Positions 371 through 15,625 of a DNA stretch of 16,104 bases are shown here, piece by piece. The translations under genes and the position numbers were made by a program. The notes under the pieces were generated by a model. It had not been told where the DNA came from. It did no database searches and saw only the letters and a list, made by a program, of their open reading frames with translations. The stretch comes from Chloroflexota bacterium (lineage in GTDB: Bacteria; Chloroflexota; Chloroflexia; Thermomicrobiales; JADLAZ01): contig JADLAZ010000167.1 of assembly GCA_020849725.1 (NCBI GenBank), positions 1 to 16,104 on the forward strand, written 5' to 3'. Position 1 is the first letter of the stretch. Each line of letters begins with the position of its first letter.

Positions 371-470
371 GGGGCCCTCCACTGGACCATGGCATGGTGA
401 CACAACCGACGCCCAGCGCGGGCATACCGCCACCGAATCGACCGGACCACAAGACCGCTCAGCTTGGCCG

Positions 471-545: not shown

Positions 546-577
546 GACACTGCCGCACCGTCGCGCCCCAACGACGC

Positions 578-606: not shown

Positions 607-655
607 GATGGCCGAACTGCGGTGGCCCGTGGGCATGGCAGGGCAGGACCGGTAC

Positions 656-898
656 ATGGGGGATGCTCCGCGCACGCCTCGCTTCTGCTGCGAAGACCTG
701 GACAGCGCCTACGAGGTGACCTTTCTCAACGCGGTGCGCGGAGAGGCAATCTGGCTGGCCTACGGCACCGACTTCGAGTCGGTGAGCGCGGGTGTGCCGG
801 AGATCCGGTTCTGGCCAGTGAGCTATTGTCCCTTCTGCGGCCGCCGGCTGCCGGATGTCAATGCGGTGGGTGCGCTCGGGCGGCCGCCGGCGGGTTGA
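656..898 (+). CDS. Small zinc-ribbon-like protein
   Basis: An 80-residue protein with a conserved-looking FCCEDL near its start and SYCPFCGRRLP near its end. The two cysteine pairs (CC and CPFC) suggest one bound zinc ion; the layout resembles small uncharacterised families such as DUF6980, but I cannot confirm membership. There is no signal peptide or membrane segment, so it should be cytoplasmic. I start it at ATG 656, with AGGA 7 nt upstream and a promoter at 578-606. In-frame ATGs at 602 and 635 are less likely: the first lies in the -10 box and the second has a weak ribosome site. It converges on the DapA-like gene with a 41-nt gap. Function unknown. Confidence 0.65.
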   Translation: MGDAPRTPRFCCEDLDSAYEVTFLNAVRGEAIWLAYGTDFESVSAGVPEIRFWPVSYCPFCGRRLPDVNAVGALGRPPAG

Positions 899-939
899 CG
901 GACGGCAGCCCGAGGGTAGGACCGCCACTGCGATGAGTG

Positions 940-1842
940 TCAGGAAGCGCCGGGCGGCATGAGGTCCAACTGCCGCAGCAGGTCGTCCAGCTCGCGCCAG
1001 GTATCAGCATCGATGGCCGGGGCCGGCTCACGCACGATGGCAGTCCGCATGGCGCCGCGTCGGCGCAAGATCTCCTTGCGGATGCCGAGTCCAATGCCGA
1101 CCTGGGCCTCGAACCGGATCAAGGGCAGGTGCTGGTGAAAGACTCGAGCGGCACGATCGTGGTCGCCGGTGATATGCGCCGAATAGATTTCCACCAGTGC
1201 TTCGGGAAAGGCGTAGCCGGTCATCGCACCGCGAGCGCCGCGTCCCAACTCTTCGAGGAAGAACAGGCCGCCGAGGCCACCGAAGACGGCGACACGGCCC
1301 TCCGTGAGGGCCAGCACCTGCGACAGTTTGCTCGGCGATGGAGGCTCCTCCAATTTGATCGCGGTCAGAGTCGAGATGTCGCGCGCCAGGCGAGCCAGCA
1401 GTGCGGGCGGCATGATCACGCCGGTCATCACCGGCTCGTCCTGCACGATGAGCGGCACATCGACAGTGGCGGCAACGCGACGGAAATGCGCCAGCAACGC
1501 GGCCTCCCCACGCACGCCGCTCGGTGGCGACACCATGATCCCGGCGGCGCCGGCCCGGCGCGCTGACTGGGCAAGCTGAATGACGACATCGGTGCCGGTA
1601 TGAGACACCCCGACGATCACTGGCACACGGCCGGCGACGCGCCTCATGACGATCTCGGTCACGCGCTCGCGCTCGGCGTCAGCCAGCTTGTGATACTCGC
1701 CCATCTGCCCCAGGATCGTCAGGCCCTGGACACCGCAGGCGAGCTCGAAGTCGACGAGGGAGCAGAGACTGACCTCGTCAAGCTGGCCGGCTTCGTCAAA
1801 AGGTGTGGCCAAGATGGCGTAGACACCGGCCCAGGTCGCCAT
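940..1842 (-). CDS. DapA-family (class I aldolase/lyase) protein
   Basis: A 300-residue TIM-barrel protein of the dihydrodipicolinate synthase/N-acetylneuraminate lyase superfamily, normal in length. The Schiff-base lysine is K163 in TAIKLEEPP. The pyruvate-binding loop reads GQMGE at 45-49, where true DapA has GTTGE, and the segment matching DapA's YNVPSRTG reads QDEPVMTG (134-141), so the proton-relay tyrosine is Gln. It therefore probably uses a Lys-dependent aldol or lyase reaction on a 2-oxo acid other than lysine synthesis. The start is ATG 1842-1840, since AGGAGG lies 5 nt upstream; an upstream in-frame ATG at 1893 lacks such a site. It follows the PHP gene on the same strand after 86 nt and may be cotranscribed. 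Family sure, substrate unknown. Confidence 0.85.
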   Translation of the reverse strand: MATWAGVYAILATPFDEAGQLDEVSLCSLVDFELACGVQGLTILGQMGEYHKLADAERERVTEIVMRRVAGRVPVIVGVSHTGTDVVIQLAQSARRAGAAGIMVSPPSGVRGEAALLAHFRRVAATVDVPLIVQDEPVMTGVIMPPALLARLARDISTLTAIKLEEPPSPSKLSQVLALTEGRVAVFGGLGGLFFLEELGRGARGAMTGYAFPEALVEIYSAHITGDHDRAARVFHQHLPLIRFEAQVGIGLGIRKEILRRRGAMRTAIVREPAPAIDADTWRELDDLLRQLDLMPPGAS

Positions 1843-1928
1843 GACTACCTCCTGTGTCGCCGGTCGGTCGCCGCCGACTGGCGCCGCGAGCATATGGCTG
1901 GCTCTGGGGGGCGGGCAAGGCCGAGCAA

Positions 1929-2651
1929 TCAGGCGCGGGCGAGCCGGCGGGCGCGGGAGATGTGCACGTAGAAGGTGGCATAGGCGAGCAGTTCGCCCGG
2001 GCGATACCAGGCGTGCGCGGCTGCGACCTCACCGGCGACGAGTGCCTGCCGGAGATCAGCGGCGGTACGCCCGTGAAAGAGCGTGTAGCTCTTCCCGATC
2101 GCGGCTAGGATGTGGGCGTCCGATCCGCCGACCTCCGGCAGCCGGCACCATTGGCGGTTGAACCGGCGCGCGCGCAGGTTGGGCACCTGTAGACAGGGCG
2201 TGCCATTGATAGTCTCGATAGCATCGAACGGCAGCGTGCGCACTAGTCGTCCAACGCCTTCGGTGACCCGGGCGCCGGCCCGGACACGCCGCCGCGCGCG
2301 AAAGAACGGGTGCGCTGCGACGGCCAGCCCGCCCTGGGCCTGAATGGCCGCCACGGTCTCGGCCGCCGACAGACCCGGACGTACCGGTTGCTCCAGCCAG
2401 AGGCCGATGATGTGGCCGTCGCGCGTGGTTACTTCCTCGCCGACGATGACGTCGATCGCTGTCGCGCACCGCGCGGCGGCGTCGCGCGCGCGCAGTGCCC
2501 CGTCCAGCACATCGTGGTCGGTGATCGCAATGACACGCAGATCGGTCTGGGAGCTAACGTGCGCCAGCACTTGCTCGACCGTGGCAACGCCGTCGGAGGC
2601 GGTCGTGTGCAGGTGCAGATCGGCTTTGCCGATCACGAAAGGTTGGACCAT
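1929..2651 (-). CDS. PHP-domain metal-dependent phosphoesterase
   Basis: A 240-residue protein that is almost entirely a PHP (polymerase and histidinol phosphatase) domain. The metal-binding motifs appear in order: DLHLHT (H13, H15), ITDHD (D45, H46), GEEVTT (E72 or E73), AAHP (H114), IETING (E146) and GGSDAH (D178, H180). All expected ligands are present, so it should be an active hydrolase of phosphate esters. Stand-alone relatives include YciV/RNase AM-type nucleotide and RNA 5'-end phosphoesterases, but the substrate cannot be read from sequence. The start at 2651 has AGGAG 9 nt upstream. It lies 195 nt downstream of the ComM-like gene on the same strand. Confidence 0.85.
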   Translation of the reverse strand: MVQPFVIGKADLHLHTTASDGVATVEQVLAHVSSQTDLRVIAITDHDVLDGALRARDAAARCATAIDVIVGEEVTTRDGHIIGLWLEQPVRPGLSAAETVAAIQAQGGLAVAAHPFFRARRRVRAGARVTEGVGRLVRTLPFDAIETINGTPCLQVPNLRARRFNRQWCRLPEVGGSDAHILAAIGKSYTLFHGRTAADLRQALVAGEVAAAHAWYRPGELLAYATFYVHISRARRLARA

Positions 2652-2846
2652 CAGCGATGACTCCTGCGCGGGCCATGATGTGGGGCAGCGATGGGCGAAA
2701 TGGACGGTCGGTGGTAATGCGTGGCCAACCGTCGGTGACGTCCTTCCATGATAGCGCGCACCCGCGCGGCTGCCACCTCCCGATGGTCATGCCTGCCGCC
2801 AGCGTGGCTGGTGCGTCGCGGGGGGACCTGGGGCGCATCTGGGTCG
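2652..2846. other. 195-nt intergenic region between PHP and ComM-like genes
   Basis: No convincing gene is seen. A minus-strand TATCAT at 2748-2753 could be a weak -10 for the PHP gene, without a recognisable -35. A GC-rich segment near 2754-2777 could fold, but has no terminator-type T-run. Confidence 0.3.
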
Positions 2847-4370
2847 CTACAGCGTGCGCTCCCGCGGCCGGTACTGCAATGCCTCGGCCACATGATGCGC
2901 TGCCATGCGGTCGTCGCCAGCCAGATCGGCGATCGTGCGCGCCAGCTTGATGACCCGGTGGTAGGCCCGCGCCGACAGATGGAGCTGGCGAGTCGCCGCC
3001 CGGAGCAGAGCCTCACTGGCCGAGTCCAGCGTGCAAAAGCGACGCAACTCAGCTGAGCGCATGTCGGCGTTGCAGACGAGGTCCAGGTCAGCGAACCGGT
3101 GGCGCTGCCGGTCCCGCGCTTGCTCGACCCGGGCGCGCACGGTGGCGGAGTCCTCGGCCAGGTCGGTCGCGGCCAGCTTCTCGTACTCGACCCGTGGCAC
3201 CTCCAGGTGGATGTCGATGCGATCGAGCAACGGCCCGCTGATGCGCTTCTGGTAGCGTGCGATGGCAGCGGCGGCGCAGGTGCAGGCGCGACCGGGGTCG
3301 CCCAGGTAGCCGCACGGGCAGGGGTTCATGGCCGCCACCAGCATGACGTTGGCCGGGAAAGTCAGCGTGCCGCTGGCCCGGGCGATCGTCACCGTCTTGT
3401 CTTCTAGCGGTTGGCGCAGCACCTCCAGCACTGTCTGGCCGAACTCGGGCAGTTCGTCGAGGAACAGGACGCCGCGATGAGCGAGACTGATCTCACCCGG
3501 TCGCGGCCAGCGCCCTCCGCCGACCAGGCCGGCATGCGAGATTGTGTGGTGCGGCGCGCGGAAAGGGCGTTGTCGGACCAGCGGCTGGTCGGGCGGCAAC
3601 AGCCCGGCGACGCTGAAGATGCGCGTCACGTCGAGCGCCTCGTCAATCGACAGCGGCGGCAGAATCGTCGGCAGCGCTCGTGCCAGCAGCGTCTTGCCCG
3701 CCCCCGGGGGGCCGCTCATGAGGACCGCGTGGGCGCCGGCCGCGGCGACTTCTAGCCCGCGCTTGACCTGCTCCTGGCCACGGATGTGGGCGAGGTCGGT
3801 GACGCCGGCGGCAGGCAGGTCCCAGTCGCCCAGATCGGTGCGCGGGGCCTGCTCGACTGGCGTCACCCCGGCCAGGTGACCGATCAGCGCCGCCAGTGAG
3901 CCGATAGGGGTCACCGTGATGCCGTCGATCAGAGCGGCTTCGGCGGCATCGTCGCTGGGAACGAACACCCGTCGCATGCCGCGCTCTCGGGCGAAGGCTG
4001 CCATTGGTAGAATGCCGGTGGTGTGGCGCACCTCACCGGCCAGCCCCAACTCCCCGATGATCAACGCATCGGACACGTCGGCTACCAACTGGCCCGACGC
4101 CAGCAGGATGCCGATGGCGATGGACAGGTCATAGCTCGGCCCGGTCTTGCGGATCTCGGCCGGGGCCAGGTTGACGGTGATACGCTTGAGCGGGAATGTG
4201 CCGCCGCTGTTCCGAATAGCGGCGCGAACCCGCTCCTTGCTCTCCTGCACCGCCGAGTCGGGCAGACCGACGATGGTCAGTGCCGGCAGGCCGTTGCCGA
4301 TATCGACTTCGACCTCGACCAGCTGGCCGTCCAGTCCGACGACGGCACAGCTCCAGACCTTGGCCAGCAC
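2847..4370 (-). CDS. comM: YifB/ComM-family Mg-chelatase-like AAA+ ATPase
   Basis: A 507-residue protein of usual length for ComM/YifB. The N-terminal ChlI-like domain starts LAKVWSCAVVGLDG and contains VEVDIGNGLPALTIVGLPD. The AAA+ core has Walker A GPPGAGKT (about 220-227), Walker B LFLDELPEF, the NPCPCGYLGDP segment and SGPLLDRIDIHLEVPR. The C-terminal domain contains LSARAYHRVIKLARTIADL. In Gram-negative bacteria ComM is a hexameric helicase that drives branch migration of incoming DNA during natural transformation; that role here is inferred. I start it at GTG 4370-4368 because family members begin MLAKVWS and GGGGGT lies 7 nt upstream. The frame is open for 38 more codons, but those residues look unlike the family. 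A candidate -10 lies at 4415-4420. Confidence 0.9.
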   Translation of the reverse strand: MLAKVWSCAVVGLDGQLVEVEVDIGNGLPALTIVGLPDSAVQESKERVRAAIRNSGGTFPLKRITVNLAPAEIRKTGPSYDLSIAIGILLASGQLVADVSDALIIGELGLAGEVRHTTGILPMAAFARERGMRRVFVPSDDAAEAALIDGITVTPIGSLAALIGHLAGVTPVEQAPRTDLGDWDLPAAGVTDLAHIRGQEQVKRGLEVAAAGAHAVLMSGPPGAGKTLLARALPTILPPLSIDEALDVTRIFSVAGLLPPDQPLVRQRPFRAPHHTISHAGLVGGGRWPRPGEISLAHRGVLFLDELPEFGQTVLEVLRQPLEDKTVTIARASGTLTFPANVMLVAAMNPCPCGYLGDPGRACTCAAAAIARYQKRISGPLLDRIDIHLEVPRVEYEKLAATDLAEDSATVRARVEQARDRQRHRFADLDLVCNADMRSAELRRFCTLDSASEALLRAATRQLHLSARAYHRVIKLARTIADLAGDDRMAAHHVAEALQYRPRERTL

Positions 4371-4414
4371 GGCGCACCCCCGTGGTGTCGCAGCATCACA
4401 CAGACGAGCGCTGC

Positions 4415-4420
4415 AGTATA
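4415..4420 (-). promoter_or_regulatory. Candidate -10 element (TATACT) for the comM-like gene
   Basis: TATACT on the minus strand lies 44 nt upstream of the chosen GTG start, giving a leader of roughly 38 nt. The -35 region is GC-rich and does not match TTGACA. It supports the downstream GTG start, since the longer open frame begins upstream of this box. Confidence 0.4.
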
Positions 4421-4483
4421 GAGCAGACGACGACTGCCCGCCGGGTAAGCGCGCCGCGAGCGGCTTGCACCTCAGCCATCTCA

Positions 4484-4506
4484 CCGCCGGGGGACCGTCG
4501 CGGCGG
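4484..4506 (-). terminator. Possible hairpin after the DUF2795 gene
   Basis: CCGCCG (4484-4489) and CGGCGG (4501-4506) form a 6-bp stem with an 11-nt loop, 12 nt past the DUF2795 stop codon. There is no T-run, so it is at best a weak or factor-assisted terminator. Confidence 0.25.
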
Positions 4507-4518
4507 CCTCACGGGTGA

Positions 4519-4851
4519 CTAGCGACGAGGTGGGTTAGGGCGCGCGACCCGCTGGGTGTTGCGACGAATGCGCTCTGCCTCGACCTCGTCGTGACGGAGC
4601 GCTGCGGGCGGAAAGCCTTCGACGTCCCAGACGCGCGGCGGGTGATAGGCCACCGCAGTCTGAACCGCCGCTAGATCGGCGTACGTCTGGTCAGGCAGGT
4701 CGGAGAGCGCCTCGACCACCTGACTGGTGGTGTTGTTGTGGCGAGCTCGCTGGATGATGGCCTGCCTGGTGGCCGGGAATTGCAGTCCGAACAAGAAGTC
4801 CGCGACCCGTGATCGAAAGACCCGTTCCTGCATGGGATCGACGTCGCCCAT
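4519..4851 (-). CDS. DUF2795 domain protein
   Basis: A 110-residue protein. Residues about 20-65 (FPATRQAIIQRARHNNTTSQ, then VVEALSDLPDQTYADLAAV) match the DUF2795 pattern: a helix, a short linker and an LPD.xY.dl.aV motif. The C-terminus is basic and Arg-rich (RIRRNTQRVARPNPPRR), which could contact nucleic acid. I chose ATG 4851 because the domain begins shortly after it and GGAGG lies 10 nt upstream; the frame stays open further upstream, but that sequence is not protein-like. It is divergent from the sigma factor gene across 253 nt and lies 148 nt upstream of comM. Small DUF2795 proteins are common in actinobacteria and Chloroflexota and have no established role. Confidence 0.75.
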   Translation of the reverse strand: MGDVDPMQERVFRSRVADFLFGLQFPATRQAIIQRARHNNTTSQVVEALSDLPDQTYADLAAVQTAVAYHPPRVWDVEGFPPAALRHDEVEAERIRRNTQRVARPNPPRR

Positions 4852-5005
4852 TCCGCCGTGCCCTCCGAGTCGTGACGCCGCACATGCGAGCGAATGTGAT
4901 CGGACCAACCTGAAACAGCCGACGCGTGAGCTGCCCGCCGCGATGGTAGCATCATCCGGAAGAACGTACCATGACAGACCCCAGCCGCCCGCCGGCAGGA
5001 TGACG

Positions 5006-5033
5006 TTGACACGCGATTGACAGGCCCTAAAGG
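5006..5033 (+). promoter_or_regulatory. Candidate promoter of the sigma/CHAT operon, with duplicated TTGACA
   Basis: Two perfect TTGACA hexamers lie 11 bp apart (5006-5011 and 5017-5022). The first is 16 nt from TAAAGG (5028-5033), a partial -10 match. The initiation site would lie near 5040, about 65 nt before the chosen GTG start. The spaced repeat could instead be a recognition site for the encoded sigma factor. The rest of 4852-5104 holds no gene I can support. Confidence 0.35.
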
Positions 5034-5104
5034 GGCGTGTGACCATCATGGTCGCCATGAGGACGCTGGCGTCGGGTACGTGCGTTTGGACAGGTGGGTT
5101 GGCG

Positions 5105-5785
5105 GTGGTGCAGCAACTCGCGCTTGCCAGTATTGTCCAGCGGTGCGCCGACGAGAGTTCGCGCTTCAGCCAGGGACAGGCGCACGACGACTCGTACTGT
5201 CATGAGCTTTTCCGACGGGCAATCGTCGAGCGACTTGCCCCGGCCTGGGAGGCGATGGTCGCGCAATACCGCGGACTGGTCCGAGACTGGATTTGGCAGC
5301 ATTCATTCGCTGCCAGCATTGACGATCATGATGATCTGACCGCGCGGGCTTTCGAGAGGTTCTGGGCGGCGGTGCCGGCCGAACGCTTCGGCGATTTCCC
5401 GCGACTGGCCGCGCTGTTGCGCTATCTGAAGTTGTGTGTCTTCCACGCACTGATTGATGAGGCGCGTGCCCAGCGTACCTGGCAGACACACCGGGCGCCC
5501 AGCGAGCAGGCCGATGAGATCGAGGGACGCCGCGTCGACGACGAGGTGCTGGATGAAGCGGCATCGTTCGCGCTCTGGCAGACCATTGAGGCGGCTCTAC
5601 CTGACCCGGCCGAGCGACTGGTTATCTATCTGTCGTGCGTGATTGGGTTGAAGCCACGCGAGATCGCCCGGCGACACGGACCGGTGTATCCAACGATTGC
5701 CGATGTTTACCGCTGCAAGCGCCTGGCTCTCGAGCGGCTGCGTCGTCATCCCGAGTTGCGGGCACGGTGGGAGGCGCCTGAGTGA
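5105..5785 (+). CDS. Sigma-70-like (ECF-type) RNA polymerase sigma factor
   Basis: About 226 residues. A region-2-like part includes HDDSYCHELFRRAI, MVAQYRGLVRDWIWQHS and LTARAFERFWAAV, the position of the ECF 'DLxQExFxrxW' helix that binds the polymerase clamp and the -10 element. A linker (about 145-165) leads to a region-4-like helix-turn-helix: ALPDPAERLVIYLSCVIG, LKPREIARRHGPVYPTIADV, YRCKRLALERLRR. The start is uncertain. I prefer GTG 5105, with AGGTGG 7 nt upstream and family-like sequence just after it. An upstream GTG at 5039 and ATGs at 5048 and 5057 are in frame without clear ribosome sites. It is the first gene of a probable four-gene operon, so it may control the cassette itself, a distant regulon, or both. 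Confidence 0.8.
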   Translation: MVQQLALASIVQRCADESSRFSQGQAHDDSYCHELFRRAIVERLAPAWEAMVAQYRGLVRDWIWQHSFAASIDDHDDLTARAFERFWAAVPAERFGDFPRLAALLRYLKLCVFHALIDEARAQRTWQTHRAPSEQADEIEGRRVDDEVLDEAASFALWQTIEAALPDPAERLVIYLSCVIGLKPREIARRHGPVYPTIADVYRCKRLALERLRRHPELRARWEAPE

Positions 5786-5831
5786 CCCCGCGTGGTCTGA
5801 CTGCGGTGGCCAATGAGCGAGACGCGCAGGT

Positions 5832-5869
5832 CCGGGCCGAAAAAAGCCCGGCCGGAACGTTTGGTCCGG
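5832..5869 (+). promoter_or_regulatory. Tandem hairpins between sigma factor and CHAT genes
   Basis: Two adjoining inverted repeats lie in the 132-nt gap. CCGGGC (5832-5837) pairs with GCCCGG (5846-5851) around an 8-nt A-rich loop. CCGGA (5852-5856) pairs with TCCGG (5865-5869) around another 8-nt loop. There is no T-run after either stem, so they are not classic terminators. They could stabilise or process the transcript, or bind a protein. Confidence 0.4.
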
Positions 5870-5917
5870 CAGAGCGGCCGGCGCCCCGGTTTGTTCGCCA
5901 GCGGCTGAGGTGCAGGG

Positions 5918-8827
5918 ATGAGTACCGCTGTCCGACTGACAGGTGAAGCGCTGATCGCGGCGCTGGCCGGGGAACCGGACGGCGTGGTGCGCGAGCGACG
6001 ACTAGCGGTGGCGCTGACCGAGCATGTGCCGGGCGAGCTCTTGACCACCCTGCGCGACGCGGCCGAGCGCCTGCGCCAGGTCGATACTCCGGCGTCACTG
6101 CGGCTGGCTGAATGCGTCGAGACCGGCGCCGCGCTGGCGGGCCGGCCCGATCACCAGGCGCTCGGCGCGATGGCGCGGGCCGATGCCCTGTGGCTGCTCG
6201 GTCACTACTCGGAGGCCGCGGCCACCTATGAAGCGGCACGGCAAGCCTTCGCCGACTTGCAGCACGAGGTCGGCTGGGCACGCACGCACATTGGCTGGGT
6301 GATCGTGAGCTATTATCTTGGCCGTGGCGCCGCGGCGCTTGACGCGCTAGCGCCGGCGGTGGCGGTGCTGGAGCGTCGCGAGGAGTGGCTGCGCGCGGGG
6401 GCCCTGGACATGAACGCCGGCTACGTCTGCTGGCGGCTGGGGCGCTTTGAGGCAGCATTGGAGCGCTTCGGGCGGGCCGAGCGGACGTTTCGGGAACGCG
6501 TGCCTGGCTCGGACCTGAAGATCGCCTGGCTTCAGGGCAATCGTGCCCTCGTACTCACTGAGATGGGGCTGTTCGACCAGGCCCTGGCGCTGCACGCACG
6601 GGCGCGGTCGGTCTTCGAGACCGAGGGCGACACGGTGTCAGTGCTGCGCACCGAGGGCTACCAGGCCGAGATACTCGCCGCGCGCGGCGAGTATACTGGC
6701 GCGCTGGCCTTGCACCAGCGCACGTTGCGGGCACTGGAGCAAGCCGGCCTGGATGTGGACGCGGCCTGGACGCGCTTGAGCATGGTGATCGCCTATCTCG
6801 GGTTGAACCGACCGGCCGAGGCGGCCGATCTGGCCCGCGCGGCGATCGACCAGTTCGAACGCTTCGCGACACCTACCGAAGCGGCCCGCGCGCGGTACTT
6901 CGCCGCGGTGGCGCTGGCGGCGCTTGATAATGCCGATGAAGCCCGTCGTCTTCTCAACGAAGCGGCGGCGACGTTTGACGCGATCGGTCACACGCACCAG
7001 CAGGCGATGGTCGCACTGCAGCAAGCGAGCTTGGCGCTGGCCGACGAGAAGTGGACCGAGGCGCGGGAGGTGGCCGGAATCGCGGCCGAGCAGTTCCTTG
7101 CCCGGGGCCAGCCGGTGCCGGCGGCACAGGCGCACCTGCTGCAGGCGCGCGCCGCGCTGGAGTGTGGCCAATGGGCCGCCGTGGCCGATGCCGCACAGTC
7201 GGTGCTGGCGGTGGCTGAGGACTGCGGTGTGCCGTGGCTGGCCTACCAGGCGCAATACCTGCGGGCGCGCGTGGCTGATCACGATAGCCGGCGGGCGGCG
7301 GCCCTGGCGGAGTACGCGGCGGCCATGGCCAGCATAGACCGATTGCAGAGCCGGCTGGCGGTTGAGTTGCGGGCGACCTTTCTCGACGACAAGCTCCATG
7401 TCTACCACGATGCCATCGACTGCGCGCTGGCCGGCGCCCTCCCAGACCTGGCGCTGGCCAGTCTCGAGCGGGCAAAATCGCGCGCGCTGGTCGATTATCT
7501 CTCTGCCCATCCCGGCGCCATCGACAACGCACTGGCTGACGACGAGAGCCGTGCGCTGGCTGGCGACGTGGCGCGGCTGCGCGCCGAGCATGCCTGGCTC
7601 GCCGGCCGGCTCTTCGGTGACAGCCTGGGCCGACGGCCGGAGCCGGGCGACAGCGGCGGGGTCGCTGCCACCGACGGCGACGTCCTGTCGGCGGCCATGC
7701 ACGATCGGGAGCAGCGCATCATCGCACTCACCGAGCAGTTAGCGTTGCGGCACGCACGGTCCGGCCGGCCGGAGCCACCCGCAAGCGGCGCCGGCGTGTG
7801 GATGGCGCCCACACTCGATGCAGACACCGTCATTCTGGAGTACTACCTGCACGGAGATACAGCCCATGTCTTCGTGATCGTCGGCGGCTCGGTGACATGC
7901 CAGCTCTTGCCAGTCACGACCGCGGCAGTGCGCCGGCTGCTGCAGTTCTGGCAGCTGAATCTCGACACCACGGCGGCGGCGCTGGCCGGCGGCCACTCCC
8001 TCGCTGAGCCAGCCGGCAACGCACGTGGCTTGCTGGCCGCCCTGTATCGAGCGCTGATCGCGCCGGTCGAGGCGTCGCTGGCTGGACATGGTCGCCTGAT
8101 CATCGTTCCACACGGGCCGCTGCACGGCGTGCCGTTCCCGGCACTTTTCGATGGTCGGCGCCACCTCATCGAGCGGTTGGTTGTGACGCTCTCACCGTCA
8201 CTCGACGTGTTGCGCCTCGACCGTGCGCCAGCGCATCGCCGGAGCGGTGTCCTCGTCATCGGACACAGCGCCGGTGGACGACTGCCAGCGGCGCTGGCGG
8301 AAGCACGATCGGTCGCTGGGCTGGTAGGCGGCCGCCTGCTGCTGGAAGGCGACGCCACCACGGCGTCGGTGCGGACATGGGCAGCTGACTGCTGCCTTGT
8401 CCACATTGCCGCCCATGGCGAAGCACGCCTCGACAACCCGGCCTTTGCCCATGTCGTGCTAGCGGACGGTCACTTGATCACCGCCGATGTCTTCGGACTG
8501 GACCTGCGCGGCGCGATCGTCGTACTGAGTGCCTGCGAAACGGGACGCGGCCAGGTCGCCACCGGGGATGAAGTCATTGGCTTGAGCCGTGGCTTCCTCT
8601 ACGCCGGCGCAGCGGCGCTCGTGCAGACGCTGTGGCGGGTGGATGATGAGGCGACCGCGGCGCTAGTGGGTGAGTTCTATCGTGCGCTGGTGGGCGGTGC
8701 ATCGACGGGCGCTGCTCTACGCGCGGCACAATGCGCCATGATCGGCAGTGATGCTCGGCGTGCCAGCCCGTTCTTCTGGGCCGCCTTTCAGTCGGTCGGC
8801 GATGCCGGCCTCGTCGATTCAGAATAA
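5918..8827 (+). CDS. TPR-CHAT protease (caspase-like, clan CD)
   Basis: A 969-residue protein. Residues about 60-500 are a long run of alpha-helical TPR-like repeats, e.g. ALGAMARADALWLLGHYSEA, GYVCWRLGRFEAALERFGRA and GNRALVLTEMGLFDQALALH. A connecting helix region containing LASLERAKSRALVDYL leads to a C-terminal CHAT domain, about 690-965. It opens with ALYRALIAPVEASL and LIIVPHGPLHGVPFPALFD and carries the catalytic His in VHIAAHGE (His833) and Cys in VLSACETGRG (Cys873), so it looks active. No signal peptide or membrane segment is seen. CHAT domains are caspase/separase-like peptidases; in type III-E CRISPR systems a TPR-CHAT protein cleaves a sigma-factor-associated target. ATG 5918 has GAGG 7 nt upstream. 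The subtilase gene follows after 35 nt. The TPR part probably senses a partner or trigger. Confidence 0.92.
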   Translation: MSTAVRLTGEALIAALAGEPDGVVRERRLAVALTEHVPGELLTTLRDAAERLRQVDTPASLRLAECVETGAALAGRPDHQALGAMARADALWLLGHYSEAAATYEAARQAFADLQHEVGWARTHIGWVIVSYYLGRGAAALDALAPAVAVLERREEWLRAGALDMNAGYVCWRLGRFEAALERFGRAERTFRERVPGSDLKIAWLQGNRALVLTEMGLFDQALALHARARSVFETEGDTVSVLRTEGYQAEILAARGEYTGALALHQRTLRALEQAGLDVDAAWTRLSMVIAYLGLNRPAEAADLARAAIDQFERFATPTEAARARYFAAVALAALDNADEARRLLNEAAATFDAIGHTHQQAMVALQQASLALADEKWTEAREVAGIAAEQFLARGQPVPAAQAHLLQARAALECGQWAAVADAAQSVLAVAEDCGVPWLAYQAQYLRARVADHDSRRAAALAEYAAAMASIDRLQSRLAVELRATFLDDKLHVYHDAIDCALAGALPDLALASLERAKSRALVDYLSAHPGAIDNALADDESRALAGDVARLRAEHAWLAGRLFGDSLGRRPEPGDSGGVAATDGDVLSAAMHDREQRIIALTEQLALRHARSGRPEPPASGAGVWMAPTLDADTVILEYYLHGDTAHVFVIVGGSVTCQLLPVTTAAVRRLLQFWQLNLDTTAAALAGGHSLAEPAGNARGLLAALYRALIAPVEASLAGHGRLIIVPHGPLHGVPFPALFDGRRHLIERLVVTLSPSLDVLRLDRAPAHRRSGVLVIGHSAGGRLPAALAEARSVAGLVGGRLLLEGDATTASVRTWAADCCLVHIAAHGEARLDNPAFAHVVLADGHLITADVFGLDLRGAIVVLSACETGRGQVATGDEVIGLSRGFLYAGAAALVQTLWRVDDEATAALVGEFYRALVGGASTGAALRAAQCAMIGSDARRASPFFWAAFQSVGDAGLVDSE

Positions 8828-8862
8828 GGAGTGGCCGCGAGCGCGGCGATGGAGGCAGGGTC

Positions 8863-10887
8863 GTGGGCGATGATGGGAGCAGCCCAGGCGTCGATTGGAA
8901 GACTGATTCTCTGACTCCGGTCAACCACGTTCCGGGTGAACTCTGCCTGGTCATTGAGGATCCGGCGTTTCGCTGGCGGCGCTACCAAGCGAACAGCGAC
9001 CCGCAAGGCGCGCTCGACCGCTACGGTCAGGCGGTGTACGCCGCCGTGCTGACGCACATGAACCGTGTCGTGCGCGATGTGCGGCTGCCAGTGTCGGTCG
9101 ATGCTCCATCTGACAAGCTGGGCGCCGCGAGCGTGGACCTGATGGGTCGCAGCCCGCTTGAACGTGACCTGACACCGGGTGTGGGGTTTCGGGCATACTT
9201 CGGTCTTAGCACGCTCAACACAGCCGTATTTCGCCCGCTGCCGAGTCGCCGCTCGACACCGCGGCCGTGGGTGCTGCTGCCGCGCCTTCGCGGTATGGTC
9301 GTTCTGGCGTTCTTCGCTGTCGGGCCGACGGAGCTGACAATAGATGAGGGCGACCGGGGAGCGCAACGCCGCGACTGGCGCTCCCGCTCGCTGCCACTGC
9401 ACCAGCAACGCATCCGGGAGTTGGTCAAGCTGCTCAACTGGCGGGCCTTGCCCCAAGCGGATGTGCCGGCGCTGGGTGGCCTGACCGTGCGGGCCGCAAC
9501 GCCCAACTGGCTGACCTGCCCGACGCACTCACACGGCAGCCCCGGCACGCTGCCGGTTCGGCTGACGCCGGTCGAGGTGCAGGCGCTCGGCGATGGCGGA
9601 CGCGGGAAGTTCACCTTCCGCTTTGTCGATGATGGACTGCTTCGGCGTGCCGGCGACCCAGCGGGCGCGGCAGCCCGCCTCCTGGCGCAGCAACAACTGG
9701 ATACGCTGGTGGAGCGCATGCGACTGCCGGTCGCGCGCGGTGTGGACCCACGGGTGGTGGTCGCCGTGCTGGACACGGCGCCGTCACCCGAGGCCATCGT
9801 GACGCGCGCGGCAGTAGCGGCCGACAACGCGCTCCTGGCGGACATTGCCGGAGAAGTCGGCCGCCCGGATGGACATGTCGTCATCGATGGCGCCGGGTTG
9901 GCCGAGCCGTTCGACCACGTGGCCGGCTTCCGCTCGAACCTGCGCGATCGACTGGCAAGTAATGGCGCGGCGTCGCTGGTCGATCACGGCCTCTTTGTCG
10001 CCGGAATCGTGCGCGATATCGCGCCGCGGGCGACGGTGCGGTTGATACGGGTACTTGACGACAGTGGCGTGGGAGATGTCGCGACACTGTTTCAAGTGTT
10101 GCAGCAGCTACCCGGACAACTCGAACGTGGCTCGCGCCTGATCATCAACCTGAGCCTCGTCGCCGATCTGCCAACTGCTGACGAGCTGCTGGCACAGTGG
10201 TTTCCCCAGACTCACGCCGACGCGACCGCACTGCGCTACTCCTGGCAGATGATCGGGGCCATGCTCGGCCTGACGCACCGTTGCCTGCAGGAGACGCTGG
10301 ATTGGCTGGCTGCCCAGGACGTTCTCGTCGTCGCTGCGGCCGGCAACGAGGGGTTCGACCCTGCCATGCGCCCGGAGCCACTCTATCCGGCCGCCTACGA
10401 CACCGTCCTGTCAGTTGCGGCGGTGACGCGTAGTGATGAGCCGGCGCAGTTCTCTAATCGGGGCGACATGCGCGTCTTTGGCAATGGCGTGGCCGTGTTC
10501 GGGGGCCAGGGGCTCGCGCCGAGCGATGAGGCGTTGCCCGACGTACCGAAGGCGGGCAAGGACGGCTGGCGCGATGCAGTGGCCGGCATCTTCAGTGCGG
10601 CCACGATTCCGCTGGCGCCGGCAGTCGCGGCCACCAACGACACCGGCTGGGTCTGGTGGTCGGGTACGTCGTTCGCGGCGCCGATCGTGGCCGCCATCGC
10701 AGCCAACCTTCTACTCGACGCGCCGACCCGGCGGCTGTCAGCGGCGGAGCTCATGCAGACGATCCGCGGCTACGCGACGATCCCCGAGTTCGCTCTGGAA
10801 CGTGATGGTCCCTTCGACTGCTCGGCCATCTTCGCGCGACAAGTGTGGCGCTCGACACCGGCCGAAAGCGTCACAACGCCACGTTGA
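8863..10887 (+). CDS. Subtilisin-like serine protease (peptidase S8), probably cytoplasmic
   Basis: A 674-residue protein with an S8 domain from about residue 295 onward. The catalytic residues are all present: Asp304 in VVVAVLDTAPS, His375 in LVDHGLFVAGIV, oxyanion Asn495 in VVAAAGNEG and Ser603 in WSGTSFAAPIVAAIAA. About 107 residues separate Asn and Ser, including a stretch rich in Gly, Ala and Pro. The first ~290 residues match no domain I recognise; they contain AATPNWLTCPTHSHG and no signal peptide, unlike secreted subtilases, so an intracellular role is likely. The start is GTG 8863 with GGAGG 7 nt upstream. Only 35 nt separate it from the CHAT gene and 54 nt from the zinc-finger gene. 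Either protease might activate the other or act on the neighbouring zinc-finger protein; this is inference. Confidence 0.92.
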   Translation: MGDDGSSPGVDWKTDSLTPVNHVPGELCLVIEDPAFRWRRYQANSDPQGALDRYGQAVYAAVLTHMNRVVRDVRLPVSVDAPSDKLGAASVDLMGRSPLERDLTPGVGFRAYFGLSTLNTAVFRPLPSRRSTPRPWVLLPRLRGMVVLAFFAVGPTELTIDEGDRGAQRRDWRSRSLPLHQQRIRELVKLLNWRALPQADVPALGGLTVRAATPNWLTCPTHSHGSPGTLPVRLTPVEVQALGDGGRGKFTFRFVDDGLLRRAGDPAGAAARLLAQQQLDTLVERMRLPVARGVDPRVVVAVLDTAPSPEAIVTRAAVAADNALLADIAGEVGRPDGHVVIDGAGLAEPFDHVAGFRSNLRDRLASNGAASLVDHGLFVAGIVRDIAPRATVRLIRVLDDSGVGDVATLFQVLQQLPGQLERGSRLIINLSLVADLPTADELLAQWFPQTHADATALRYSWQMIGAMLGLTHRCLQETLDWLAAQDVLVVAAAGNEGFDPAMRPEPLYPAAYDTVLSVAAVTRSDEPAQFSNRGDMRVFGNGVAVFGGQGLAPSDEALPDVPKAGKDGWRDAVAGIFSAATIPLAPAVAATNDTGWVWWSGTSFAAPIVAAIAANLLLDAPTRRLSAAELMQTIRGYATIPEFALERDGPFDCSAIFARQVWRSTPAESVTTPR

Positions 10888-10941
10888 GTAGGATGCGGGT
10901 GGGTGTCACCCCAGTTGTCCACTGAGGAAGGCAGGCGAGTC

Positions 10942-11694
10942 GTGACGGAGTGTATCGAGCCGGGCGCCGTCACAGACGATGATCTGGTCGCCTACGCGGC
11001 CGGCGAACGACCGCGTCGCGTGCGCGCGCACGTGCAAGCATGCGAGGCCTGCGCCGCGATAGTCGCGCGCTTCGCCGCGACCGAGGACCAGCTCGGCCAG
11101 GCTCTGTTTCGCTTTGACTGCCCGACCGGCCTGGAGCTTGGCGAATACCATCTTGGCCTGCTGGCCGAGGGCGTCCGACGCCGGGTGGCCGCGCATTTGT
11201 CGCGCTGCCCACACTGCATGGCCGAGCTAGCGACGGCGCAGGGCTTCCTCGACCAGGCCGCCAGCGCTGCCCCTGCCGAGCCGCTCGGTCGGCGCGCGCG
11301 CCAGGCGGCGCGCGCCGCGCTCGAGCGCGTCGTGGCGCAGCTCATCCCGCCGCCTATGACGATGGCGGCTGGGCTGCGCGGCACTGGAACCGCGGTGACC
11401 TGGCGCTACGAAGCCGGCGATCTGGCGCTGACGTTGCATCCGCAACCGGCTGACCGGCCACGTGGCCAGCACCAGGTGCTGGCATTTGTCGAGCAGCGCA
11501 ATGCTGCTCTGGATAGTCTGTCCGATGTGCCGGTGCGGCTCGTCGATGCGGCGGGCGTGACCGTGGCCGCGACGACGATCGATATGATCGGCAACTTCAT
11601 CATCGGGCCGGCGCCCGCCGGCGCCTATGCGCTGGAGCTGACCCTGCCTGAGCGCGTCGTCGTCGTGCCCGACCTGGCGCTCGGGACGACCTGA
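10942..11694 (+). CDS. Two-finger zf-HC2 protein, candidate soluble anti-sigma factor
   Basis: A 250-residue protein with two HX3CX2C motifs typical of zinc-binding anti-sigma (ZAS, zf-HC2) domains: H30/C34/C37 (AHVQACEACA) and H85/C89/C92 (AHLSRCPHCM). Each follows a similar acidic helix (DDDLVAYAAGE and GEYHLGLLAEG), so the N-terminal half looks like a tandem duplication. A Pro/Ala-rich link follows, then a C-terminal beta-rich domain (about 155-248: VPVRLVDAAGVTVAATTIDM, GNFIIGPAPAGAYALELTLP) resembling carboxypeptidase-regulatory-like or transthyretin-like folds. No membrane segment is seen, unlike most ZAS anti-sigma factors. I chose GTG 10942, with GGCAGG 6 nt upstream; an in-frame GTG at 10903 would add 13 residues. 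Last gene of the cassette; a partner or antagonist of the sigma factor is plausible but unproven. Confidence 0.75.
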   Translation: MTECIEPGAVTDDDLVAYAAGERPRRVRAHVQACEACAAIVARFAATEDQLGQALFRFDCPTGLELGEYHLGLLAEGVRRRVAAHLSRCPHCMAELATAQGFLDQAASAAPAEPLGRRARQAARAALERVVAQLIPPPMTMAAGLRGTGTAVTWRYEAGDLALTLHPQPADRPRGQHQVLAFVEQRNAALDSLSDVPVRLVDAAGVTVAATTIDMIGNFIIGPAPAGAYALELTLPERVVVVPDLALGTT

Positions 11695-11706
11695 GTGGCG
11701 GCACGA

Positions 11707-13056
11707 CTAGGCCCAGTCCTCCAGCGCGGCCCGGATCGCTGATAGGAACCGGCCGGCTGCCGTGGTGTCGGCGGCTCGCTCGTCGTAGGCGAGGCAGGCA
11801 TTCATCAACGGGCGCACGGCGATGGCATCCTCGTTGCCGACAACGACCGGGCGACGGGTGATTGCCTCCATCGTCACGATAGCAACCTGCGGCTGGTTGA
11901 TGATCGGACGTGACAGGACCGACCCGACCGCGCCGGTGTTATTGATCGTCATCGTGCCGCCGGCCATGTCCGAAGGCGCCAGCCGGTTGGCGCGGGCGCG
12001 CTCGACGTGGGTCTGCAGCGCGCGCGCCATGCCAGTCAAATTGAGGCCGTCGGCGCCGACGATAACCGGCACGACGAGGCCGGCGTCGATGGCGACGGCA
12101 ACGCCGAGATTGACGGTGTGGTGCTGGCGCAGTTCGCCCTCCTGCCAGGTCGCATTCAAGTCGGGCGTTGCCGCCAGGGCGCGGACCACGGCGACGGCGA
12201 AGTACGGCAGGTAGGTCAGGCTGAAGCCCTCGTCGGCCTCGAAGGCGCCACGCAGGGCGGCGCGGGCGCGCACGACGGCACTCATGTCGATTTCGATGCT
12301 CATCCAGCCGTGCGGCGCGGTGGCAACGCTGCGCTCCATGTGCGCGGCGATCGCGCGGCGCACGGGTGTCAGCGGCATCAGGTCCAGCACTGGGGGGACC
12401 GGGAGGGGGGGCGACGCGGCTACTGGCGAGGGATGGTTCATCGGGGGAACGTCCGCTGGGGCGGGTCGCGCTCCGACGGCGGCCTGCACATCGGCCGCAT
12501 TGAGCCGGCCGCCCAGGCCGCTCCCCGGCAGCGCGGCGAGATCGGAGTCGGTGAGGTGGTAGGCAGCGGCGATTGCGGCGGCGCGCGGCGTAATGAGGCG
12601 GCGGGCCAATCCGGTCGCTACGCCAATCAGGGACATATCCCATGAGTTGATATCCACCAGATTGGCAGCCCATTGCGGTGGAGGAGGGGCGGATATTGGC
12701 GTTGGCGCGGCGGTTACCGCAAGGTCACCAGCGGGCGGCAAGATTGGCGGCGAGAGGGAGCGGAGGCTGGCGCTCGCGCCAGCGGTGACCGATTGGTCCG
12801 GCGGCGCGCCCGCTTCCCCGGCGGGCGCGATGGTGGCGATCAGTGCGCCGGCAGCAACCGTGTCGCCTTCGTTCGCGGCGATGCTGACGAGCGTGCCGCT
12901 GGTTGGCGCCGGCACTTCGATCGTGACCTTGTCCGAGACGACCTCTAGCAGCGGCTCGCCCTCGGCCACGGCGTCACCCGGCTGGCGCAGCCAGACGCCG
13001 ATCGTGACCTCGGCGGCCGCCTCGTTGACGTTCGGCATCTTGACCGGCACCGGCAT
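11707..13056 (-). CDS. 2-oxo acid dehydrogenase E2 component, catalytic His replaced
   Basis: A 449-residue E2 protein with the standard order: lipoyl domain (1-78, lipoyl-lysine K43 in VVSDKVTIEV), Pro/Ala-rich linker, E1/E3-binding domain (about 190-222; TPRAAAIAAAYHLTDSDLAA then GSGLGGRLNAADV), a second Pro-rich linker and a C-terminal acyltransferase domain with MTINNTGAVGSVLSRPIINQ and PQVAIVTMEAI. In active E2s this domain ends with a DHRxxDG motif whose His catalyses acyl transfer to CoA. Here it reads DERAADT (425-431), so His is Glu and Gly is Thr. The start is ATG 13056, with AGGAG 6 nt upstream. It lies 46 nt after the AceE-like E1 gene, so the two should form one complex. No E3 gene is in view. 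It converges on the zinc-finger gene with 12 nt between them. Confidence 0.9.
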   Translation of the reverse strand: MPVPVKMPNVNEAAAEVTIGVWLRQPGDAVAEGEPLLEVVSDKVTIEVPAPTSGTLVSIAANEGDTVAAGALIATIAPAGEAGAPPDQSVTAGASASLRSLSPPILPPAGDLAVTAAPTPISAPPPPQWAANLVDINSWDMSLIGVATGLARRLITPRAAAIAAAYHLTDSDLAALPGSGLGGRLNAADVQAAVGARPAPADVPPMNHPSPVAASPPLPVPPVLDLMPLTPVRRAIAAHMERSVATAPHGWMSIEIDMSAVVRARAALRGAFEADEGFSLTYLPYFAVAVVRALAATPDLNATWQEGELRQHHTVNLGVAVAIDAGLVVPVIVGADGLNLTGMARALQTHVERARANRLAPSDMAGGTMTINNTGAVGSVLSRPIINQPQVAIVTMEAITRRPVVVGNEDAIAVRPLMNACLAYDERAADTTAAGRFLSAIRAALEDWA

Positions 13057-13102
13057 GGCCAGCTCCTGCCCAGGTGACCGCGGCCCAACCGGCCGCGCGC
13101 GA

Positions 13103-15523
13103 TCAGAGACCGAGACCCAGCCCGACCAGGACTGCGTTGGCGATACTCTCGGCATCGATAGCCTCGTCGCGGAAGAGATCGGCGCGCAGGCCGGACTGGC
13201 CGAAGCGGTCGACGCCAAGCGGCACGACCGGTGCGCCGAATACCCCGCCCAGGAACGCCAGCGCGTGCGATGCGCCGTCCAGTGCTGTTACGATCGGCGC
13301 GCGCCGGTCGGCCGGGGCGATGAGCTCCTCCAGGTGTCCGGCCGCACCGCTGACGGTGCCGGCCACGACATGGCCGCGGCGCACATGGCGCAGGCCGGCA
13401 TAGAGCCGGTCGGGACTGGTCAGGTTGAGGACAACCGCGGCCACACCCTCGGCATGCAGGAGCCGGGCAGCCTCGGCAGCTTCGGGCATAACGGCGCCGG
13501 TGGCGGCGATGTGGGCAACCGGTCCAACCAGACCGGCCGGCGGCTCGATGAGGCGATAGCCGCCGGCCAGCACCTGCCGGCGCAGCTCGTCCTCACCGAG
13601 GCGGGCCAGCGCCGGCTCCATGATCGTCTGATCGATGGCGCGCGTCGTCAGACGCAAATAGGTCGCTCGCCCGTGATCGCGGTCGCAGCAGGAGCGCAAC
13701 CCCTGCAGCAAGCACCACTCGACCTCACGCCCAAACGCCGGCTCGTACATGTGCAGGTTCGGCAGCTCCATGCCCAGCGAGTTGGTCACGGTCGACTGGT
13801 GCGCCCCACCCTCCGGCGCGAGCGAAATGCCTGATGGTGTACCGGCAAACACGAATTTGGCGCCGCTGTACAGGCTGTAGACGAGGGCATCCAGACCGCG
13901 CAGCACGAAACAGTCGTAGACGGTGCCGATGGGCAGCAGCAACTGACCGTTCAGCTCCGCCGACAGACCGAGCTGGCCGAGCAACATGAACAGGTTCATC
14001 TCAGAGATGCCCAGCTCGATGTGCTGGCCGCGCGGCCCCGGCTGCCAGCGGAGCATCCGCTGCGTCTCCGGGGTGAAATCGCGCTGCGCCTCGCTGGCGA
14101 AGACGCCAGCACGGTTGATCCAGTTGCCCAGGCTGGTCGATACGGCGACATCGGGCGATGTGGTGACGAGGCGCTCGGCCAATCCCGGCACGCGCGCCAG
14201 GCTGGCGACCAGGTTGCCAAACGCTTCCTGCGTCGACAGCGTCGCCGGCATGCGCCCGCCAAGCTGGTGTGGGATGTCTTCGGGCCGCAGCGCCGAGGCT
14301 GCCGGCGCCGGCTCGCTGGCGAGGCGCGCGGCCGCGCTGGCGCAGAGCTGGCCCGCGGTCGAGGTGGCCGGGAAGGCCGCCCACTCGTCGTCCAGCGGCA
14401 CGGCCAGCTCGTCGCGCAGGCGATCGATTTGCGTCTGATTGAGCAGGGCGGAGTGGTTGTGTGCATCGCCAGCGAACGACAGCCCCCAGCCCTTGATGGT
14501 GTAGGCGAAAATGATGGTCGGTTGTGCAGTCACACGGTCGGCGGCGGCATACGTTTCAAGAAGCACACTCAGGTCGTGGCCGCCGAGATCGGCCAGCAGG
14601 TCCGGCAAGTCATCGTCCGGCACATCGGCGACGGCCTGCGCCAGCGCGTCCATGCCCGGTTCCGTGGTATCGAGCAACCGGAGGCGCGCCTCTGGTCCCG
14701 GCAGCCGGATCATCGCCTGGTACTCTTCATTCGACATGTCGTCGATGCGGTGGCGGAGCGCCTCACCGTGCGGGCGGCTGAAGGCGGCTTGCAAGCGCCG
14801 GCCGTACTTGGCCTCGACGACATGCCAGCCGTTGCCGGCAAACAGCGCCTTCAAGCGGGCGGCGCGAATACCCGGCACGACCCGGTCGAGGCTCTGTCGG
14901 TTGAGATCGACGATCCACAGCACGTTGCCCAGGCCGGCGACGGCCTCCTCACCAATCGCCTCCCAGACATTGCCCTCGTCCAGCTCGGCATCGCCGACGA
15001 TAGAGATGAAGCGCCGGGGTCGCTGCGGCCCAAAATGCAGGCCGGCGTAGCGGTCGGCCAGCGCGGCGAACAGCGGCGCGACCGGACCCAGCCCAACCGA
15101 ACCGCCCGAGAAGTCGGGGTGATCCGGGTCCTTGGTGCGACTGGGATACGCTTGCAGGCCGTGAAAGGTGCGCAGTTGCGGCAGGTAGGCGCGGTCCAGG
15201 TTCCCGAGCAAGTACTGAAGCGCATGAAAGACGGGCGAGGCGTGCGGCTTTACCAGCACGCGGTCGCCGGGCCGCAGGTGTGCGAGGTAGAGTGCCGTCA
15301 GGATGGAGACGACGGAGGCGGACGACGCCTGATGGCCGCCGACCTTGCTGCCGTCCGGATTGGGCCGGAGGTGGTTAGCGTGGTGGATCATGTTGGTCGC
15401 CAGCCAGAGCACTCGGCGCTGGACCTGATCGAGCGCGGCCAGGTCGAGCGCGGCCGCGTCGACGGTGTCGCCAGCCTGGGGGCTAAGCGTGGCCGTGCCG
15501 GCGCGGGTCGGCTGCTCCTGCAT
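13103..15523 (-). CDS. aceE: Pyruvate dehydrogenase E1 component, homodimeric (AceE-like)
   Basis: An 806-residue thiamine diphosphate enzyme with transketolase-like domains fused in one chain, as in E. coli AceE (887 residues) rather than the alpha/beta heterodimer. The N-terminal third has GGHQASSAS, LVKPHASPVFHALQYLLGNL and the cofactor-binding GDAELDEGN (177-185) ending at IVDLNRQSLD. The middle domain has STSLGNWINRAGVFA and ELGISEMNLFMLLGQLG, where the Glu is expected to activate the cofactor, then APEGGAHQSTVTNSLGME. The C-terminal part resembles the transketolase C domain. It should decarboxylate pyruvate and reductively acetylate the lipoyl group of the E2 encoded 46 nt downstream; pyruvate specificity is inferred. 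ATG 15523 has GAGGAGG 7 nt upstream, and a promoter -10 is seen at 15566-15571. Confidence 0.87.
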   Translation of the reverse strand: MQEQPTRAGTATLSPQAGDTVDAAALDLAALDQVQRRVLWLATNMIHHANHLRPNPDGSKVGGHQASSASVVSILTALYLAHLRPGDRVLVKPHASPVFHALQYLLGNLDRAYLPQLRTFHGLQAYPSRTKDPDHPDFSGGSVGLGPVAPLFAALADRYAGLHFGPQRPRRFISIVGDAELDEGNVWEAIGEEAVAGLGNVLWIVDLNRQSLDRVVPGIRAARLKALFAGNGWHVVEAKYGRRLQAAFSRPHGEALRHRIDDMSNEEYQAMIRLPGPEARLRLLDTTEPGMDALAQAVADVPDDDLPDLLADLGGHDLSVLLETYAAADRVTAQPTIIFAYTIKGWGLSFAGDAHNHSALLNQTQIDRLRDELAVPLDDEWAAFPATSTAGQLCASAAARLASEPAPAASALRPEDIPHQLGGRMPATLSTQEAFGNLVASLARVPGLAERLVTTSPDVAVSTSLGNWINRAGVFASEAQRDFTPETQRMLRWQPGPRGQHIELGISEMNLFMLLGQLGLSAELNGQLLLPIGTVYDCFVLRGLDALVYSLYSGAKFVFAGTPSGISLAPEGGAHQSTVTNSLGMELPNLHMYEPAFGREVEWCLLQGLRSCCDRDHGRATYLRLTTRAIDQTIMEPALARLGEDELRRQVLAGGYRLIEPPAGLVGPVAHIAATGAVMPEAAEAARLLHAEGVAAVVLNLTSPDRLYAGLRHVRRGHVVAGTVSGAAGHLEELIAPADRRAPIVTALDGASHALAFLGGVFGAPVVPLGVDRFGQSGLRADLFRDEAIDAESIANAVLVGLGLGL

Positions 15524-15565
15524 GGCGGTGCCTCCTCATCTGGCGCGACCCGGTAGACTGGCTCT

Positions 15566-15571
15566 ATTGTA
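15566..15571 (-). promoter_or_regulatory. Extended -10 promoter element of aceE-E2 operon
   Basis: The minus strand reads TGCTACAAT, an extended -10 (TGn plus TACAAT, hexamer at 15566-15571). No -35 consensus is visible, which is common for extended -10 promoters. The leader to ATG 15523 would be about 36 nt. Confidence 0.5.
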
Positions 15572-15576
15572 GCAAA

Positions 15577-15592
15577 CGCCGGCTGGCCGGCG
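15577..15592. promoter_or_regulatory. Palindrome upstream of aceE, possible operator
   Basis: CGCCGGC (15577-15583) and GCCGGCG (15586-15592) are perfect inverted arms around a TG. The site overlaps the spacer and -35 region of the aceE promoter, where a repressor could block transcription. GCCGGC words are frequent in this GC-rich DNA, so chance is possible. Confidence 0.3.
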
Positions 15593-15625
15593 GGTGTCTG
15601 ATTTGCGTGCACCAGGAGGGTGGCG

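Follow-up and report, generated by a model that had tools for sequence, protein, structure and literature searches.

A four-gene cassette in a Chloroflexota contig

Contig JADLAZ010000167.1 of a Chloroflexota bacterium (assembly GCA_020849725.1; positions 1 to 16,104, the 16,104 nucleotides hereafter called the window) carries on its plus strand, in this order, genes for an extracytoplasmic function (ECF)-like sigma factor (SIG), a protease with tetratricopeptide repeats (TPR) and a CHAT domain (TPR-CHAT, or CHAT for short), a subtilase (S8) and a zinc-finger protein that is putatively an anti-sigma factor (ZF). The cassette recurs in related genomes and may constitute a sigma-factor switch, free of CRISPR (clustered regularly interspaced short palindromic repeats), in which proteolysis of ZF by CHAT would release SIG. 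An earlier note on this DNA had described four same-strand genes with gaps of 132, 35 and 54 nt, and the recomputed coordinates give exactly these gaps, with ZF starting at the GTG at 10942.

SIG (5057..5785, plus strand) could start at 5039, 5048, 5057 or 5105, all candidates sharing the stop at 5785, and alignment to its relatives favours a start at about 5057. It matches the sigma factor model TIGR02937 over residues 69-214 with E 2.1e-9 and 37.2 bits, under the 42.9-bit cut-off; 21 of 35 family members match this model at 0.001, and the SIG profile matches sigma-28 (1rp3, E 0.00033). In the SIG alignment (A3, 35 rows, without L157, whose sigma gene is split over two frames), C127 is invariant, and C30 and C48 are kept in at least 90% of rows.

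ZF is a putative soluble anti-sigma factor encoded at 10942..11694 (plus strand) in an open reading frame that is readable from 10903, from which its residues are numbered here. The two HX3CX2C motifs of the earlier note lie at H43 and H98 and are each preceded by a conserved cysteine, giving the modules C17/H43/C47/C50 and C73/H98/C102/C105. ZF matches zf-HC2 (PF13490, E 6.8e-6) and the antisigma model NF052375 (4.6e-8, under cut-off), and its profile weakly matches the solved anti-sigma factors DdvA, 3hug_B and ChrR (ChrR E 0.015). The structural model (mean predicted local distance difference test score, pLDDT, 81.6; predicted template modelling score, pTM, 0.47) places the zinc modules in small helical bundles, followed by low-confidence linkers and, from about residue 167, an Ig-like beta-sandwich. 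A Foldseek search with this model returned ChrR at rank 34 (E 0.045), and ChrR was absent from the 50 VIA rows; matches to the beta-sandwich filled the list, so that the anti-sigma part was barely probed. Against CarboxypepD_reg the window protein scores no better than E 0.12, while 11 of 44 relatives match this domain. Weak but consistent, the matches to anti-sigma factors point to a putative protein of the anti-sigma type. Its pairing with a sigma factor, which the earlier note had surmised, gains from three relatives in which SIG and ZF form a single open reading frame as in-frame fusions, and it is very likely, judging from these fusions and matches, that the two form a sigma/anti-sigma pair. 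In the fusions (L219, L220, L221), a common stretch around RGPxSL, seen by eye, joins the sigma and anti-sigma parts.

TPR-CHAT (5918..8827, plus strand; 969 aa; PF12770, E 9e-61) consists of helical repeats up to about residue 530 and a CHAT domain at about 705-962, with catalytic residues H829, H833 and C873. Its histidines and cysteine, called intact in the earlier note, do not vary among the 32 Chloroflexota cassette CHATs (alignment A5, window included), and the equivalent residues are kept in all 26 CHATs that adjoin S8 in other phyla (L149, L157 and others are omitted from alignments A4 or A5). TPR-CHAT may act as an allosteric sensor whose binding to ZF, left uncut, sets SIG free, as a split version of DdvA, the chain in which an anti-sigma domain and TPR-CHAT are joined; the invariance of the catalytic residues in both sets speaks against this, and we regard it as quite unlikely. 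The predicted structure (pLDDT 87, pTM 0.85) finds Csx29, separase and DdvA as top Foldseek matches, Csx29 being the best fold match, and the Csx29 model scores 35.3 bits against a cut-off of 300, over the CHAT part only. The likeness to Craspase proposed earlier is thus borne out as kinship with Csx29, by both model score and fold. Twelve CHAT proteins outside cassettes (L194-L205; G002, G004, G329, G362) include two that match ClpA/ClpB ATPase models strongly, CHAT being joined to Clp-type AAA modules, and five that match HetF. One cassette-type CHAT match (G351:C1:3351422-3353632) contains a single internal TAG stop and may be a pseudogene or a sequencing error.

S8 (8863..10887, plus strand; 674 aa; PF00082, E 4.1e-16) has the triad D304, H375 and S603 together with N495, all invariant columns in a 36-row alignment with some partial rows, in agreement with the intact triad read before. 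A signal peptide was judged absent from the window S8 by eye only, and some S8 relatives have a hydrophobic or signal-like N-terminus.

Recurrence of the cassette and its gene order

Eighty S8-related loci emerged when species genomes were scanned, the relatives including Ktedonobacter racemifer, Streptomyces and other named strains. Among the first eight, six (L001, L003, L005-L008) run SIG, ZF, CHAT, S8, while L004 holds ZF, CHAT, S8 and the short contig L002 carries S8 alone. When 400 Chloroflexota genomes were searched, the profiles of ZF (E<=1e-8), S8 (1e-25) and CHAT (1e-60) matched in 70, 41 and 71 of them, respectively. SIG adjoins ZF in 29 of the best 30 ZF loci, and CHAT lies in the short flank of 28. 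Forty larger regions chosen from the ZF, S8 and CHAT matches contain all four genes in 10 cases (with a divergent CHAT-S8 pair in L166), SIG-ZF-CHAT without adjacent S8 in 20 (two of which end at the contig end), ZF-CHAT-S8 without detected SIG in 2, SIG-ZF only in 4 (L165, L167, L176 and L175, the last ending at the contig edge) and S8 only in 4. In every region that has both genes (34/34), ZF directly follows SIG. The common order is sigma, zinc-finger, CHAT and often subtilase, from which the window differs in that its zinc-finger gene comes last. In a FastTree tree (support not tested) the window groups with L003 and L169-L172, all of which keep ZF before CHAT, and since its tree neighbours do so, the order of the window is probably derived.

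Counted by genome (n=400), with ZF taken as full-length or nearly so and CHAT as the cassette-type TPR-CHAT, 49 genomes have both, 2 have ZF only, 22 have CHAT only and 327 have neither (Fisher p ~6e-43, shared descent ignored). A chance gene cluster was rejected, given that CHAT co-occurs in 49 of the 51 ZF genomes and that 327 of 400 lack both. The 123 ZF rows include 7 second gene pieces, which were left out, and the remaining 116 were split by hand into 77 rows and 39 that match mainly over the zinc finger, some of the latter having longer frames; the CHAT and S8 rows include gene fragments. A CHAT is found no more than 1.5 kb from ZF in 51 of the 77 rows versus none of the 39. The control set A8, whose rows end at locus ends, was built without L188, which has a high cassette score and was later found in a cassette. 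The earlier note had asked for conservation of the neighbourhood as its first test, and the neighbourhood does recur across related genomes; we are highly confident that the four genes form a conserved module. Beside the main Ktedonobacterales-type cassette of L146, L151 and L155 lie an open reading frame of about 1100 aa starting MPSxGYxR and another of about 440 aa, both absent in L180.

Of the four parts, the subtilase has the loosest tie to the module. Conceivably S8 is the anti-sigma protease and CHAT its activator, in a two-protease cascade; 24 of 58 Chloroflexota S8 rows from the 400 genomes do have a CHAT no more than 1.5 kb away, and CHAT was found in the fetched 10-kb flanks of 41 of the 72 loci outside the eight best, loci that had been chosen by S8. 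Yet the 20 of 40 regions with CHAT and no adjacent S8, mostly the main Ktedonobacterales copy, argue against such a cascade, as do lone S8 genes elsewhere, and it is very unlikely. The lone genes (L177, L178, L179 and L184) belong to a tight S8 subfamily, with no cassette partners seen in the fetched flanks. The same 20 regions weaken the role of second executioner that the earlier note had offered for the subtilase, because of this loose attachment, and S8 is probably an accessory protease.

The genes around the cassette are, by profile matches, DHDPS, PHP, a Mg-chelatase-type ATPase, which we take to be YifB-like, and DUF2795 upstream, and a 2-oxoacid dehydrogenase acyltransferase, a transketolase-like/PDH E1-like protein and Maf downstream. 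A defence-island reading was rejected, since these flanks consist of housekeeping genes. Rfam and tRNA scans of the window gave no matches. A simple exact-repeat scan of 50 loci (790,751 bases) found no CRISPR-like array, which supports the CRISPR independence proposed from the window, and among the window proteins scanned no Cas family, including Cas7-11-like proteins, was matched save for the weak Csx29 match of CHAT. In PADLOC, the only matches were weak ones of S8 to subtilase/IetS and one of CHAT at the level of chance.

ECF54-type loci, zinc-less relatives and a conserved arginine

The accessible text of PMC8999054 describes ECF54 sigma factors, a group that it takes from the classification of Casas-Pastor et al., in a context of carboxypeptidase, subtilase and CHAT proteins, names no anti-sigma factor there and proposes proteolytic control. 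Similar loci are found among our relatives. Thirty-two of the 41 CHAT loci, all Actinomycetota by title, also encode a recognisable third protein (about 130-180 aa), and an ECF sigma factor lies just upstream of it in 31 of 32 (L009 being without one; in L015 and L023 the sigma factor was recognised by eye after the motif had missed it), with 31 of 31 matching TIGR02937. These actinobacterial loci thus hold a sigma factor, a subtilase, a CHAT protein and a zinc-less relative of the anti-sigma protein, and from their gene content we infer that they are ECF54. The profile of the third proteins (alignment A6, 29 of the 32) matches ZF over its C-terminal part (probability 97.1, E 6.2e-11). Because 19 of 29 scanned third proteins match CarboxypepD_reg, the 'carboxypeptidase' of the ECF54 context is likely a non-enzymatic domain, as this family assignment suggests.

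Intermediates exist within Chloroflexota, in the form of cassette sigma factors that match the sigma profile of the actinobacterial loci with E values between 5e-40 and 3e-54; we call these ECF54-like, a label for that profile match and not an ECF group assignment. Nine Chloroflexota loci (L206, L228-L230, L232, L234-L237) combine such a sigma factor with a third protein, and only one of them (L230) keeps HX3CX2C, a motif that occurs in none of the 32 actinobacterial third proteins (last 170 residues searched). A profile of seven zinc-less third proteins (from six ECF54-like loci and from L227, where sigma was not detected) bridges the two families, in that it covers ZF from residue 77 through to the C-terminus (probability 99.4, E 9e-22) and also matches the actinobacterial third-protein family (probability 98.4, E 7e-15). 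The third proteins of L022 (Zixibacteria) and L048 (Phycisphaerae), likewise zinc-less, match NF052375 at 1.2e-4 and 4.9e-10, respectively, under cut-off, and that of L038 had no match in the same model scan. ECF54-type systems may accordingly possess an anti-sigma factor from which the zinc ligands have disappeared.

These relatives bear on whether ZF senses redox state or zinc. It is conceivable that ZF belongs to the ChrR/RsrA type of anti-sigma factor and lets SIG go unaided, CHAT and S8 being outputs or executioners under the sigma factor, and both its modules of a cysteine plus HX3CX2C, as in zinc anti-sigma factors, and its profile match to ChrR fit this idea. However, since HX3CX2C is missing from most related third proteins in loci that keep CHAT (all but one of the nine ECF54-like Chloroflexota loci and all 32 actinobacterial ones), redox sensing is not the conserved function, and we consider this alternative rather unlikely.

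The ZF linker holds a conserved arginine. Arg159 (codon 11377..11379, plus strand) is invariant in 44 of 44 ZF proteins, while other positions within residues 156-162, a segment with pLDDT <50, are conserved in 20-68% of rows. The linkers are rich in arginine (mean 2.5; a single one in only 4 of 44), and in 60 rounds of linker shuffling and realignment no column exceeded 16 of 44 arginines, although with another residue a column did rise to 39 of 44. All 29 actinobacterial third proteins of A6 carry an aligned arginine (on realignment L053 falls out of register and the column is nearly invariant), as do, read by eye, all 18 of a further set of proteins; the arginine of the L022 and L048 third proteins was likewise read by eye. 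Its conservation makes Arg159 a candidate cleavage or recognition site.

Sigma release by CHAT and comparison with known systems

We propose that the cassette is a CRISPR-free sigma-factor switch in which ZF would hold SIG, the long TPR superhelix would likely sense a cytoplasmic cue and activate CHAT, and active CHAT would cut ZF, probably in the linker ahead of the beta-sandwich. The cut would destabilise ZF, and SIG would be freed to transcribe its genes; S8, as an accessory second protease, might serve trimming, amplification or shut-off. We hold this switch to be the best explanation, with a probability of roughly 55%; SIG/ZF binding, the CHAT trigger, cleavage of ZF, the role of S8 and the regulon are parts that we infer. 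The step at its centre, proteolysis of the anti-sigma factor by CHAT, is slightly favoured.

Several observations weigh against this proposal. Only 6 of the 26 CHATs adjoining S8 in other phyla match the Csx29 model. SIG-ZF pairs occur without CHAT in the fetched flank (L165, L167, L176), no listed CHAT falls inside 1.5 kb for 26 of the 77 ZF rows, some of which sit at contig edges, and an anti-sigma gene adjoins 72% of ECFs in Chloroflexi anyway, according to the accessible part of PMC7406223. Upstream of SIG, no box for sigma self-regulation was recognised by eye, nor did a comparison of promoters across loci by eye reveal a shared ECF-type box, and vegetative-looking TATACT boxes lie upstream in several Ktedonobacterales loci. 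The ZF proteins of L165 and L176, which have no adjacent CHAT, also keep Arg159. This residue might have a structural role instead, such as pairing with the conserved D227. Nor does the pocket of CHAT help. The accessible text of PMC10317155 has separase requiring an Asp that binds the P1 Arg, and that of PMC9729208 equates this residue, D2151, with K670 in Csx29. Counting along the alignment puts A914 of the window CHAT at this position, which is Ala in 23 of 32 CHAT rows; there is thus no pocket support for Arg specificity, and a P1-Arg pocket of the separase type was rejected as support for a cut at Arg159, the acid not being conserved.

If the proposal is true, sigma release by a caspase/separase-like protease would be a standing design of bacterial signalling independent of CRISPR; Craspase would then be one version of this design that is wired to CRISPR. 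ECF54 sigma factors would gain a concrete partner, and their 'proposed proteolytic control' would become a question about a single residue. A bolder generalisation is that a CRISPR-free ECF sigma/anti-sigma/TPR-CHAT module is the general kind, of which ECF54 (its overlooked anti-sigma factor having lost the zinc ligands), DdvSA and Csx29/Csx30/CASP-sigma are variants, with CHAT cutting at Arg159 in a flexible linker between sigma-binding helices and beta-sandwich; we offer it tentatively, as possible with the odds somewhat against it.

No description of the Chloroflexota cassette was found in the literature searched. The earlier proposal of a proteolytic signalling system is partly supported overall and turns out less novel, since a subtilase/CHAT context with proteolytic control of ECF54 is in print in what is accessible of PMC8999054, and because DdvA already joins an anti-sigma domain with TPR-CHAT. 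In the DdvS/DdvA pathway of Myxococcus (8rot, 8rw5, 8rlz), as here, an ECF sigma factor, an anti-sigma domain of the zinc type and a TPR-CHAT act in one pathway. DdvA, though, is a single transmembrane chain, whereas the window has anti-sigma and CHAT on separate genes (10942-11694 and 5918-8827) and, unlike DdvA, two zinc modules and a beta-sandwich in ZF as well as a subtilase. Because DdvS controls an antiphage island, as the accessible text of PMC12288465 has it, a defence role is worth considering. Type III-E Craspase (Csx29, Csx30, CASP-sigma) resembles the cassette in having a TPR-CHAT, a sigma factor and a sigma antagonist, the last being putative in the cassette, but differs in its CRISPR array and Cas7-11, not found here, and in the distance of the window CHAT from the Csx29 cut-off. 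The zinc anti-sigma factors ChrR and RsrA share the HX3CX2C anti-sigma domain with ZF, which differs in having two such modules and another C-terminal domain. A further neighbourhood has been described in which a caspase-like protease, a TPR protein and an ECF sigma factor occur together and a sigma output is proposed, but its caspase, TPR and adaptor families are different and the accessible part of that description mentions neither a zinc-finger anti-sigma factor nor a subtilase. The cassette is thus like Craspase and DdvSA in outline, without the defining features of either. It resembles in content the ECF54 context, in which CHAT, subtilase and a carboxypeptidase-type domain protein lie near the sigma factor: the window has all of these, the C-terminal domain of ZF being homologous to the third protein. 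Whereas ECF54 is listed without an anti-sigma factor, the homologue of the 'carboxypeptidase'-type protein is here a tandem zinc-finger protein of the anti-sigma type, and it is by this explicit anti-sigma-type protein that the ECF54 context is extended.

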